Origin: Simkaniaceae bacterium
GTDB taxonomy: Bacteria; Chlamydiota; Chlamydiia; Chlamydiales; Simkaniaceae
Reading direction: 5' to 3'
Length of the DNA stretch: 44,310 bases
Assembly: GCA_028281675.1 (NCBI GenBank)
Contig: JANQJL010000095.1
Coordinates: 1-44,310, forward strand
The translations under genes and the position numbers were made by a program. A model generated the notes under the pieces. That model ran no database searches, was not told where the DNA came from, and saw only the letters and a program-made list of their open reading frames with translations. Below, piece after piece: positions 27,121 to 30,531 of this stretch (position 1 is its first letter; each line of letters begins with the position of its first letter).

Positions 27121-28131
27121 TTAGAACTCAATTCCAGCCTTTAACGTTATCCCGTAGAAAGTTAAGTCTTCGGCATATCGAATCAGTTGAAAGCGAAAAC
27201 CATTGGCCGCCTTGTTTTCAATCTCAACGGCTTGGTTTTGACGCCAAAAATATTCAGCTTCATACCCTAAGCTGAGACTAAACTGCCCCCATTTCATTGG
27301 ATAATCCCAGTTGATCCCTAATAAAAAATGAAGCGTCGGTGAAAAAAGGTGGGTGCTCCCTTTAAGAGCGATTTGATTTTCGGAATGTTTGAGCTCAAAC
27401 TTTCCAAATAAGAGGGAAACATGTCCACCGGCAATGAAAGAAATGCCACAAAGGAGGTGCCATTTCATATTAAGTCCTATACTAGGGCCTGTTCCTACAA
27501 AACGGCATCGATCTTTAACTCTTGTCACCCCATCGCCTATATAAGTTACCCCCTGCTTCTGATCGATCCAAGTCCGCTTTAAACCAATTGAACTGCTAAG
27601 TCCAAGTAGGCGGCTAAAAAATGAGGTCTGATAAAGGTATAAGTCGATATTATCGTAGTCGATTTTATAATCGGATGTTGCTTTTTGACTCGCCGGGATA
27701 ATTCCCCCTTTTAAGGAAATTAAAAGGGATGGAGGAATGACTCCCCGTCCTTCATGATCTTGAGTTCCAAAGTGGGTATATGTTCCAATAAGCTCCCATT
27801 TTAAAATAGGAAGACGGAGGCCTGCCCCCAATCTATATCCCCAATCCCAATCAAAACTTTGGGATTCAATCTTTCCCTTTCCCCTCGTGGCTAGATCATA
27901 GACATACTCGGTTCCACCCACTTTTGCATGCCAAAAAAAAGGCCCTCCAAAAAACTGAAGCCCCGCCCAACCTTTCTCAAACTCCCCACTTGTAAAGTTA
28001 GCCCCAAATCTCCCACCTTCGGTCTCAGTCCCTACCTGATCCATCTTCTGTTCGAGGAGTTGAACACGATTTTCTAAATCATTTCCCAAAAGTGGAAATA
28101 TGTAAATAAGCACTAAAAACAGATATCTCAT
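27121..28131 (-). CDS. Legionella-type major outer membrane protein (MOMP-like porin)
   Basis: A 336-residue outer-membrane protein. A signal peptide (about 1-16) is followed by a short coiled coil (LENRVQLLEQKMDQV) and then alternating beta-strands rich in Gly, Tyr, Phe and Trp, ending in the C-terminal Phe that marks barrel proteins. The coiled coil followed by a barrel with WDWGYRLGAGLRLP and SLGYEAEYFWRQNQ resembles the Legionella MOMP family, which is expanded in Simkania and Waddlia. It is probably a porin with surface loops. It runs alone, with tRNA-Ala downstream and thiN ending 58 bases upstream. Confidence 0.8.
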   Translation of the reverse strand: MRYLFLVLIYIFPLLGNDLENRVQLLEQKMDQVGTETEGGRFGANFTSGEFEKGWAGLQFFGGPFFWHAKVGGTEYVYDLATRGKGKIESQSFDWDWGYRLGAGLRLPILKWELIGTYTHFGTQDHEGRGVIPPSLLISLKGGIIPASQKATSDYKIDYDNIDLYLYQTSFFSRLLGLSSSIGLKRTWIDQKQGVTYIGDGVTRVKDRCRFVGTGPSIGLNMKWHLLCGISFIAGGHVSLLFGKFELKHSENQIALKGSTHLFSPTLHFLLGINWDYPMKWGQFSLSLGYEAEYFWRQNQAVEIENKAANGFRFQLIRYAEDLTFYGITLKAGIEF

Positions 28132-28189: not shown

Positions 28190-28852
28190 TCATGTAACAT
28201 CAATAATTACTAGGACTTTCCCTTCTTCAACATAAATTTCGATAAAATCGTCCTGTGTTCGATTCCTGATTCCTAAAGTTCCATCAGGTTCCAAAACCTG
28301 ATGATCTAATTCCCAAACCAGTCCTTTTGACGTGATCCTAGAAAAGACAGAAGGTAAAATTGAAACAGTCGCCCCTAGAGTAACTTTTGAACAAAACCTC
28401 TCATTCGATAAAGGAAACCCTATCTTAACTCCCATTTCAGTGTCGCTTTTCGTGTAGCTATCTAAGAAATATAGTGATTGTTTTTTTCCATGTTTGAGAA
28501 GGGTTTGCGTATTCCCAAGAACATGATCGATTTCTCCCCCACTAAAACCAAAAATTAATCCGGGCAATAAGTCTTTTTCTTTTGCGAATTCAATACACTT
28601 CTCAAAATCGGTTGAGTTTTGGTCACCAATTCTTATTATTTTAGAGTTTGAACATACATCATCTCGAATATATGAATCTCCGTCACCTATAATATAGTCT
28701 GGCTGCATACCTAACTTTATTAAGCGGTTGGCAGCCCCATCTGCGGCAATCAATGTGGCCTCTTTATTTATCCAGGGAATTAGCCAACGATTTAAACTTT
28801 CCCCATTGAGACAAATAACACTATTATGAGAGCTAATTATGTTTTCTAACAT
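28190..28852 (-). CDS. thiN: Thiamine pyrophosphokinase
   Basis: A 220-residue enzyme converting thiamine and ATP to thiamine pyrophosphate. Family motifs are AADGAANRL (37-45), YIIGDGDS (53-60), DQNSTDFEK (77-85) and FGFSGGEIDHVLGN (about 102-115), together forming the ATP and thiamine sites. The C-terminal thiamine-binding half includes GFPLSNERF and GTLGIRNR. Its ATG overlaps the stop codon of the PQ-loop transporter by one base (TAATG), so it is translated with it, under the TPP riboswitch at 29127-29212. The pairing suggests salvage of imported thiamine, since no thiamine synthesis gene is in the window. Confidence 0.93.
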   Translation of the reverse strand: MLENIISSHNSVICLNGESLNRWLIPWINKEATLIAADGAANRLIKLGMQPDYIIGDGDSYIRDDVCSNSKIIRIGDQNSTDFEKCIEFAKEKDLLPGLIFGFSGGEIDHVLGNTQTLLKHGKKQSLYFLDSYTKSDTEMGVKIGFPLSNERFCSKVTLGATVSILPSVFSRITSKGLVWELDHQVLEPDGTLGIRNRTQDDFIEIYVEEGKVLVIIDVT

Positions 28853-29121
28853 TACAATTGTTTTACTTTAGCTGTAAATTTTATCTTAAAAGCTATAAGG
28901 ACACATGAGAAAAGAGTCATAATGCAATTTGTAATCCAAACAGATCGCGCATTTGTTAGACAGCCATAAGCAATCCAACTTAAAGAACAAATTAAAAAAT
29001 TAATGAGCATCATCATCGAAAGGCCTTCTACAGATTTCGATCGATATGTATGGTAGATTTGGGGTAATAAAGATATTGTAGAAGTTATTAATGCAACAAA
29101 GCTAATAATAGATAAAATCAT
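28852..29121 (-). CDS. SemiSWEET-size PQ-loop transporter, candidate thiamine importer
   Basis: An 89-residue membrane protein with three predicted helices (about 3-20, 35-54, 62-80) and a PQ-loop signature, LLPQIYHTYRSKSVEGLS (residues 18-35). This is the half-transporter layout of bacterial SemiSWEETs, which dimerise to make a pore. The ATG at 29121 has GGAGG eight bases upstream, and that GGAGG is part of the TPP riboswitch, so TPP would close translation. Downstream and overlapping by one base is thiamine pyrophosphokinase. SemiSWEETs are known for sugars; the riboswitch and partner gene argue for thiamine here. PnuT, of the SWEET-fold PnuC family, is a precedent at fold level. Confidence 0.85.
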   Translation of the reverse strand: MILSIISFVALITSTISLLPQIYHTYRSKSVEGLSMMMLINFLICSLSWIAYGCLTNARSVWITNCIMTLFSCVLIAFKIKFTAKVKQL

Positions 29122-29126
29122 TTTAA

Positions 29127-29212
29127 TTTCCTCCGCTAGAATTATCCAGATCAGGTTATGCGGGTTAACATACTAAATTGTTTCTCAGCCCAAAGTGTTG
29201 AGGGCACCCCGA
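29127..29212 (-). promoter_or_regulatory. TPP riboswitch (THI element)
   Basis: On the minus strand the conserved blocks appear in order: CGGGGTGCCC, GGGCTGAGA, AACCCGC, ACCTGATCTGGATAAT and GCGGAGGAAA. These are the P1/P2/P3 side, the CUGAGA pyrimidine-sensor loop and the P4/P5 pyrophosphate-sensor of the TPP aptamer. The last block contains the Shine-Dalgarno GGAGG of the transporter, eight bases before its ATG. No separate terminator hairpin is seen, so control is most likely at translation initiation. Confidence 0.95.
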
Positions 29213-29226
29213 TTAAAATCCACCCA

Positions 29227-29256
29227 ATGGTACTCTTTTTACTTAATAAGTGTCAA
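29227..29256 (-). promoter_or_regulatory. Promoter of the TPP riboswitch unit
   Basis: On the minus strand a perfect TTGACA (29256-29251), an 18-base spacer and TACCAT (29232-29227) put the transcript start about 8-10 bases before the aptamer, so the RNA begins almost with the riboswitch. Confidence 0.6.
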
Positions 29257-29283: not shown

Positions 29284-30531
29284 CTATCCAGCATTAGCTT
29301 CTATTCGAATTGGATACTTCCTCCCATTAAAAGATAGTGAAGCCGTAGCGAGCAAACAGAGCCCCATTCCACATAAAAGGACAAAGGTAGGACTTCCTGT
29401 TTGAAGGAATAAAAAGGAACCCAAATAGGGAAAGATTATCCCCCTAACACCCACAGCTAAAACGTTGACAGAACTATAGGGGGCACTCCCCTCTTCTTTA
29501 GAAAAGACTGGTCCAGACATCTTCCAGCTCAGCTCGCTTCCCCCTTGCATCACTCCATAAACTAAGTAGGCAATATAAATAATTGAACTCGAAGAATGGG
29601 CAAAAATTAACAGGATAGGAAAGATTGCTGCTGCAAGGGTAACAATAGAACAGAGAATAAAGATGCGAGAGCGGTTAAAAAACTTTACCCAAAGAGGGGA
29701 CGATAAGGCAAATCCAATCCCTTTAAGGGCAGCAATTGCTGTCAATACATCGGAATAAGAAAGGTGGAGAATGTCATTAAAATATCTCGGCAAAACGGGT
29801 TGCAGAATCATGAGCCCCGCTCCCCCTAAGAAAAATCCCCACTGAAACTTTGCAAAATCGGGGCGTTGGGTTAATAGCTTCCAACCACTTTTCCACGGAT
29901 TAATAAGGTGGGAAAATTTCTTTTGCTCCAATGGCTTTTCTCTTTCTTCTAAGGGATCTATTTTTATCTTTTTTATAGGCCAAGTAGAAATAATCCCAAG
30001 GACGGCTGTAGTCGGAAAAAGCCATCGCCATGATTCTGAAACGTTATCTAAAATTCCTCCAAAAAAAAGGGGGAGAAGGGCGATCCCTAAATAATCAATG
30101 GTTGAGGCAAGAGCACAAACTTTGCTCCTTGATTGACTCGAGACCTTTATTTTTAAGACCTCCATCCAAGCTGGAATCGTTCCTCGACAAAGGAACATAT
30201 GGAATCCTACTGCAAAGATGTAAAACCAAGGATTATTAACAAAAGGGAAGAATAGAAAGGGAATAAATTTTAGAATGTTTCCTAGAATTAAATTCGAAAT
30301 AAGCCTTTCTCTCATCGCATGAACCCTTTGGCTCCAATAAGGAGAAAAGAGGGCTGCAACAGGTTTTAAAGCAATAAGGGTCGCAAGTTGAAACGGGGTT
30401 GCATGTAAGTCTTTGTAAAGAATCACAGGGAGGAGGCAAAAGATTCCCCAAAAAGGAAAGGAAAGAAGCCTCGAAATGACATAGGCCACCGAGGTAGAAC
30501 CTTTAATTAAAATTTCTGGGCTCCTATTCAT
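29284..30531 (-). CDS. Major facilitator superfamily transporter
   Basis: A 415-residue protein with about twelve hydrophobic helices and a central charged loop (about 183-210, IKKIKIDPLEEREKPLEQKK). The second half contains YLVYGVMQGGSELSWKMSGP and APYSSVNVLAVGVRGIIFPY, which are very characteristic of this subfamily. The substrate is not evident. The ATG at 30531 is the first start. Residues from about 258 to the end are closely matched by the truncated copy at 43739-44245, so the genome carried at least two paralogues. The gene precedes the riboswitch unit but that unit has its own promoter. Confidence 0.85.
   Translation of the reverse strand: MNRSPEILIKGSTSVAYVISRLLSFPFWGIFCLLPVILYKDLHATPFQLATLIALKPVAALFSPYWSQRVHAMRERLISNLILGNILKFIPFLFFPFVNNPWFYIFAVGFHMFLCRGTIPAWMEVLKIKVSSQSRSKVCALASTIDYLGIALLPLFFGGILDNVSESWRWLFPTTAVLGIISTWPIKKIKIDPLEEREKPLEQKKFSHLINPWKSGWKLLTQRPDFAKFQWGFFLGGAGLMILQPVLPRYFNDILHLSYSDVLTAIAALKGIGFALSSPLWVKFFNRSRIFILCSIVTLAAAIFPILLIFAHSSSSIIYIAYLVYGVMQGGSELSWKMSGPVFSKEEGSAPYSSVNVLAVGVRGIIFPYLGSFLFLQTGSPTFVLLCGMGLCLLATASLSFNGRKYPIRIEANAG

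Follow-up and report, generated by a model that had tools for sequence, protein, structure and literature searches.

A TPP riboswitch, a SemiSWEET-type protein of 89 residues and thiamine pyrophosphokinase form a probable thiamine salvage cassette in Chlamydiota and other bacteria

Described thiamine carriers and SemiSWEETs

Carriers of the PnuC family have a SWEET-like fold, and full-length PnuC and PnuT contain seven to eight helices. PnuT had been named in an earlier note on this DNA as a precedent for this fold carrying thiamine. Bacteroides has a TPP riboswitch-pnuT-tnr3 operon and its PnuT reportedly transports thiamine in E. coli (PMC5613172). TPP riboswitches control transporters of thiamin and its precursors in almost all lineages studied (PMC3766115). 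Sixteen of 19 SemiSWEET sequence clusters were without a known substrate in 2018, and secondary metabolites were suggested as possible SemiSWEET cargo (Jia et al. 2018, PMC5972207). The same report listed a SemiSWEET of Legionella cherrii with a thiamine pyrophosphokinase (TPK) as its neighbor, under a UniProt ID identical to one given for a Rickettsia protein. In the parts consulted the report deals with one locus and makes no claim of a riboswitch, a subfamily or thiamine import there. No paper proposing a thiamine-carrying SemiSWEET was found in the open-access literature, a scope outside which most subscription journals lie. The open-access literature also returned nothing on PQ-loop proteins with thiamine pyrophosphokinase or with thiamin and a riboswitch, on a TPP riboswitch in Chlamydiae, or on MtN3 with a thiamin transporter and a riboswitch.

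The locus described here lies in a 44,310-nucleotide stretch of DNA (the window) from a Simkaniaceae bacterium. Like pnuT-tnr3 (PMC5613172) it combines a TPP riboswitch, a membrane carrier and a thiamine-activating enzyme in one operon, and its 89-amino acid (aa) carrier is predicted to share thiamine as substrate with PnuT. The carrier is about half the length of PnuT, which belongs to another Pfam family (PF04973). Its fold and core are common to the SemiSWEET sugar transporters of solved structure (4qnc, 4x5m, 4rng). It differs from these in belonging to a subfamily linked to TPK and a TPP aptamer and marked by Thr13, Ser14, Leu18, Leu39, Asn41, Cys45 and Ser46. Its top NCBIfam match was SemiSWEET_2 (NF037968) at 58.7 bits, below the curated cut-off of 80. 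The mitochondrial pyruvate carrier is eukaryotic, has a different substrate and is about 9% identical to the 89-aa protein. The Legionella cherrii SemiSWEET-TPK locus is very likely the same cassette. That neighbourhood was known before, and what is added here is strong and consistent genomic evidence pointing to a thiamine role.

The riboswitch, transporter and kinase in the window

The earlier note had read three things from the letters: a TPP aptamer at 29127-29212, a Shine-Dalgarno within its last block, and an 89-residue, three-helix PQ-loop gene overlapping TPK by one base. All three were recovered (Table 1). The Rfam TPP model aligned over positions 1-105, its full length (E 1.3e-11), with a score above the gathering score of 54.3 bits. 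No second TPP aptamer was found in a search of the window genome, which is 94% complete. The GGAGGA is separated by 7 nt from the ATG of the 89-aa gene, and base 28852 is common to the TAA stop of this gene and the ATG start of TPK. TPK also exceeded the curated TIGR01378 cut-off of 76.4 bits. The MFS gene is on the same strand, 62 nt upstream of the aptamer. Directly downstream of the cassette in this chlamydial genome is a gene for a Legionella_OMP-family outer-membrane protein (PF05150, 116.6 bits) at 27121-28131(-).

Table 1. Features of the cassette in the window, its upstream neighbor, and the chlamydial loci with a TPP match followed by a mitochondrial-carrier-like gene
Feature	Position	Strand	Basis or genomes
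TPP riboswitch aptamer (THI element, RF00059)	29111-29221	-	Rfam, 68.8 bits
Shine-Dalgarno GGAGGA	29129-29134	-	Sequence and Rfam alignment; within last conserved aptamer block
89-aa three-helix PQ-loop/SemiSWEET-fold protein, predicted thiamine facilitator	28852-29121	-	ATG start; Pfam and AlphaFold2
Thiamine pyrophosphokinase (TPK, thiN), 220 aa	28190-28852	-	TIGR01378 110.3 bits, PF04263 77.3 bits
MFS transporter, neighbor, not counted in the unit	29284-30531	-	PF07690 84.5 bits
TPP-then-carrier loci	L203-L210		G157, G104, G103, G217, G005, G179, G100, G087

The Rfam structure line assigns GAGG (29133-29130) to the 3' strand of an aptamer stem and CCUG to its partner strand. In the Rfam alignment three positions of this stem form standard pairs and the fourth is a mismatch. 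One base lies between the closing helix of the aptamer and the ATG. Since GAGG is part of the stem, the ligand-bound fold would mask the Shine-Dalgarno, and a separate expression platform would not be needed.

The 89-aa protein matched the PQ-loop family PF04193 at 52.8 bits (cut-off 22) and MtN3_slv PF03083 at 34.5 bits (cut-off 23.7). Its AlphaFold2 model (mean pLDDT 89.9) has three helices (residues 2-28, 36-56 and 59-88), and the top structural matches of the model were SemiSWEETs. The length is within the 80-100 aa of the SemiSWEET/MtN3_slv-PQ-loop clan and the PQ motif is Pro20-Gln21. No match to PF04973 (PnuC/PnuT) was found up to an E value of 0.1. By its modelled fold the protein belongs to the SemiSWEET clan, which does not imply sugar transport.

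Distribution, residues and descent of the subfamily

Whole member genes scored 111-137 bits with a subfamily profile and other PQ-loop loci about 70 bits or less, a gap that makes the grouping, drawn from sequence scores, a natural one. The subfamily comprised 48 loci (12 Chlamydiota, 33 Gammaproteobacteria, two Holosporales and one Puniceicoccales), 36 of them found by similarity to linked loci and 12 by a general PF04193 search. At 46 of the 47 loci that could be judged TPK was the adjacent downstream gene, 45 times intact and once broken (G226); the locus of G183, cut by a contig end, was left out of this denominator. A TPP aptamer was directly upstream at 40/48 loci at the gathering score and at 42/48 with weaker matches. 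Control PQ-loop loci had neither TPK (0/47) nor a TPP aptamer (0/47) within the examined flanks of about 1.5 kb per side, shorter at contig ends. The 47 controls were 13 from Chlamydiota, 26 from Gammaproteobacteria and eight from the order of one Holosporales genome. The neighbor counts omit 27 of 57 places in the gammaproteobacterial class and 32 of 62 in one of its orders, including a 113.5-bit member (G680). No p-value is given because the subfamily loci are related by descent. Homologues that never lie near thiamine genes would, according to the earlier note, have spoken against its reading; these counts show the opposite.

The 232 Chlamydiota genomes contained 25 PF04193 places in 21 genomes. 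A TPP aptamer abutted or overlapped the gene start at 11 of these 25, the kind of association in other chlamydiae which the earlier note had proposed to count. The next gene at the 11 loci was an intact TPK (nine), the broken TPK of G226 or a contig end (G183). Six of the loci were from genomes of the same genus as the window, four from Anoxychlamydiales and one from a third family (G039). Neither a TPP aptamer nor, within the examined flanks, a TPK was present at the 14 places left. One of these, L023 in G226, is nevertheless a subfamily member (120.9 bits) and a clear exception. The remaining 13 were rejected as members, with 31.5 bits or less or no score with the subfamily profile, and were used as controls. 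Against PF04193 one of them scored 40 bits (L012) and twelve scored 20-26 bits, with three below the cut-off. Some of these control matches may not be transporters; L022 lies within a 1012-aa frame. In G226 the riboswitch and SemiSWEET are intact, the TPK frame is broken (L132:2435-2983), and a search of this 99% complete genome gave no further TPK. Its lone, riboswitch-free SemiSWEET paralogue L023 is 16 kb from the cassette copy.

The chlamydial alignment was also used in a cross-phylum scan, which found 11 loci, with TPK next at ten and the eleventh cut off. Four were outside Chlamydiota (one gammaproteobacterium, two Holosporales and one Puniceicoccales), and at all four TPK overlapped the small gene. 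Among these four a TPP aptamer was found at the gammaproteobacterial locus only (69.8 bits), the sole TPP aptamer found in that genome. The three Holosporales/Puniceicoccales loci had none, and neither did L102 and L136. In the gammaproteobacterial class (369 genomes) 52 genomes had a match, of which four places scored 112-129 bits and the next best 70. In the order of one of these four (143 genomes) 31 genomes scored 113-121 bits, followed by 67. TPK was directly downstream at 30/30 loci examined in this order (30 of the 31 members; G680 left out). TPP aptamers were present at 27/30 at the gathering score, with one more of 54.3 bits at a looser setting and one of 43.9 bits. Taking the Gammaproteobacteria together, TPK followed 33/33 subfamily loci and a TPP aptamer preceded 29/33, or 31/33 with weaker matches, while the 26 loci at 70 bits or less had no TPK and no TPP aptamer. 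The eight generic loci from the order of one Holosporales genome likewise had neither, and the subfamily copy of that genome has TPK. Going by the Legionella cherrii report, the genomes of the gammaproteobacterial order may be Legionellales. Genes for spermidine/putrescine-type binding proteins, recognized by eye, were seen near SemiSWEET-TPK at L097:3564-4805 (Holosporales) and L134:3402-4493 (gammaproteobacterial).

Among 47 subfamily leaders, ACCTGAT occurred no more than 60 nt from the assigned start in 40, and every one of these 40 had a Shine-Dalgarno-like word (GGAGG or similar) in the last 22 nt. For some gammaproteobacterial rows the assigned start was an internal ATG; translation there probably begins at the GTG that follows GGAGGAAAAT.

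Residues were compared between 47 subfamily and 33 generic rows. Gln21 and Ser35 were present in all 80. Pro20, Trp49, Tyr52, Gly53 and Asn65 were present in 47/47 subfamily rows and in 27-31 of the 33 generic rows. The largest differences were at Asn41 (47/47; generic mostly Leu or Ile; divergence 1.00), Cys45 (47/47 compared to 0/33; generic Gly 30/33; divergence 1.00) and Thr13 (46/47; generic Leu 23/33; divergence 0.93). Leu39 (47/47) and Ser46 (47/47) occurred in 3/33 and 4/33 generic rows, respectively. The pocket of LbSemiSWEET contains Thr13, Trp48 and Asn64 (PMC5972207). The Trp and Asn are kept as Trp49 and Asn65 in all 47 subfamily rows. The position of the pocket Thr is occupied by Ser14 (46/47 subfamily, 3/33 generic), a conservative change which does not affect clan membership. 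Residues 41, 45 and 49 follow one another at intervals of one helix turn and, from this periodicity, should lie on the same side of the helix as the pocket Trp. Thr13, Ser14, Asn41, Cys45 and Ser46 near the pocket may, as we read them, mark the change of cargo from sugar to thiamine.

The SemiSWEET-partner TPKs formed one clade (100/100) against 18 other chlamydial TPKs. The tree used 24 of the 46 partner TPKs, 17 of the 30 others fetched and the long TPK of the window genome. The clade is divided into two subclades, one of Simkaniaceae-like and Anoxychlamydiales sequences and one of the rest, among which is the chlamydial L013. The same two groups were seen in a SemiSWEET tree of 26 of the 47 subfamily rows, which is weak at 89 columns, and L013 was placed in the gammaproteobacterial group in both gene trees. 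Our reading is that the cassette probably formed once and was then passed on as a block, also between phyla.

Thiamine supply in the carrier genomes and proposed function

Thiamine genes were searched for in 28 carrier genomes, the 18 first found and ten picked from the gammaproteobacterial order. thiC was present in 2/28 and thiE in 12/28, and 16/28, including the window genome, had neither. An intact PnuC/PnuT (PF04973) was found in 0/28, with no match of any kind in the window genome. Four cassette-bearing Anoxychlamydiales genomes contain PnuC-like frames (PF04973) broken by three to five stops (L178-L181), possibly an older, decayed carrier. Imported precursors would be useless to the 16 carriers without thiE. 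The substrate of TPK is thiamine, and thiamine is thus the most economical cargo.

Thirty chlamydial TPP loci were fetched and the 24 without a SemiSWEET were surveyed by eye; the remainder were the SemiSWEET loci. The next gene was an MFS-like frame of one type at 14, another thiamine-type gene at six (thiD, thiM, binding proteins, ABC and a 519-aa transporter-like frame) and unclear at four. Family tests covered the hydroxyethylthiazole kinase at L044 and, from loci outside this survey, the MFS at L207 and thiD beside the second aptamer of G225, a genome with both SemiSWEET and non-SemiSWEET TPP loci. TPP aptamers in Chlamydiota mostly mark genes of thiamine uptake or salvage, and the SemiSWEET stands where an importer would be expected.

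Mitochondrial-carrier-like genes (PF00153) matched in 58 of the 232 Chlamydiota genomes (56 over the cut-off) and in 0/14 controls. In eight genomes such a gene follows a TPP match on the same strand at a distance of up to about 2 kb (Table 1). Six of these TPP matches were over the gathering score; that of G100 was below it (52.9 bits) and that of G087 was a partial match of 28 bases at a contig end (28.8 bits). The layouts were TPP-MFS-carrier (four), TPP-thiE-like-MFS-carrier (two) and TPP-carrier-binding protein (two). Family tests covered 8/8 carriers, one MFS, one NMT1/THI5-like and one thiE-like gene (below cut-off), and the rest were judged by eye. Contig 79 of the window genome encodes, on one strand, a 348-aa TPK, two carriers of 288 and 297 aa and a transketolase (L129:553-1599, L182:211-2601). 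G094 and G140 have a similar row, the carriers being family-tested and the transketolase recognized by eye. These arrangements hint that SLC25-type carriers, a second eukaryote-type family, may move thiamine or TPP in chlamydiae.

We regard the unit in the window as a TPP-repressed thiamine salvage cassette, in which an 89-aa thiamine facilitator is pulled by TPK and shut off at translation, with a probability of about 0.85. The 89-aa protein very probably imports vitamin B1. It would form a homodimer, as solved SemiSWEETs do, through which thiamine, a cation, would enter the cell, driven by its electrochemical gradient. TPK, translated together with the transporter, would convert incoming thiamine to TPP, trapping it and keeping the gradient inward. 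When TPP is plentiful it would bind the nascent leader, the aptamer stem would pair with the Shine-Dalgarno, and translation of both transporter and kinase would stop. With the core kept (PQ motif, pocket Trp and Asn), changes near the pocket would have shifted the cargo from sugar to thiamine. The cassette would then have moved as a block among lineages often unable to make thiamine. It is likely, going by gene context and sequence, that the whole subfamily consists of homodimeric thiamine importers of fewer than 100 residues, made one-way by the kinase, masked by the aptamer and spread as a block in four lineages.

The fold and core residues, including the pocket Trp and Asn, match those of sugar SemiSWEETs, and the few characterized SemiSWEETs transport sugars (PMC5972207). 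The protein could accordingly be an ordinary sugar SemiSWEET that is in a thiamine operon by chance or supplies a sugar enzyme that depends on TPP, for example transketolase. This is improbable: the link to TPK or TPP is special to the subfamily, none of the 47 other PQ-loop loci examined having it, the subfamily has invariant residues of its own, and a TPP switch on a sugar channel is without obvious logic. Hardly more probable is import of a precursor (HMP or thiazole), thiamine monophosphate or TPP in place of thiamine. TPP riboswitches control precursor transporters too (PMC3766115), 12 carriers have thiE, and G226 with its broken TPK is the single case which fits TPP import. However, the 16 carriers without a thiE match, the window genome among them, could not join precursors, and the constant partner TPK acts on thiamine and would not be needed for imported TPP. 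The least probable reading is that the protein works as an exporter or, without transporting anything, as a membrane-bound companion of TPK. SemiSWEETs can work both ways, BjSemiSWEET showing uptake and efflux (PMC5972207). Against this reading, a gene repressed by TPP is expressed during TPP shortage, just when export would do harm, and the core residues are kept.

Several observations count against the thiamine importer. L023 is a lone paralogue with neither TPP aptamer nor TPK, and G226 keeps riboswitch and transporter despite the broken TPK. Some carriers have thiE (12/28) or thiC (2/28). Five loci lack the aptamer (three Holosporales/Puniceicoccales loci, L102 and L136). The TPK tree suggests that the cassettes descend from a single ancestor, which means that the loci cannot be treated as independent samples. 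The second TPK of the window genome, beside mitochondrial-carrier-like genes and transketolase, marks a possible rival route, so the cassette need not be the sole thiamine route there.

The subfamily is not named as such in the open-access literature consulted. To our knowledge no SemiSWEET with a vitamin substrate was known before, and this would be the first. SemiSWEETs are treated as sugar carriers, and one group of them gains a specific and testable vitamin substrate together with candidate specificity residues. The cassette offers a minimal model in which a facilitator and a kinase make a one-way importer. If the reading is true, few thiamine transporters would be as small as these proteins, which would also explain the uptake of vitamin B1 by thiamine-auxotrophic chlamydiae and some other bacteria.
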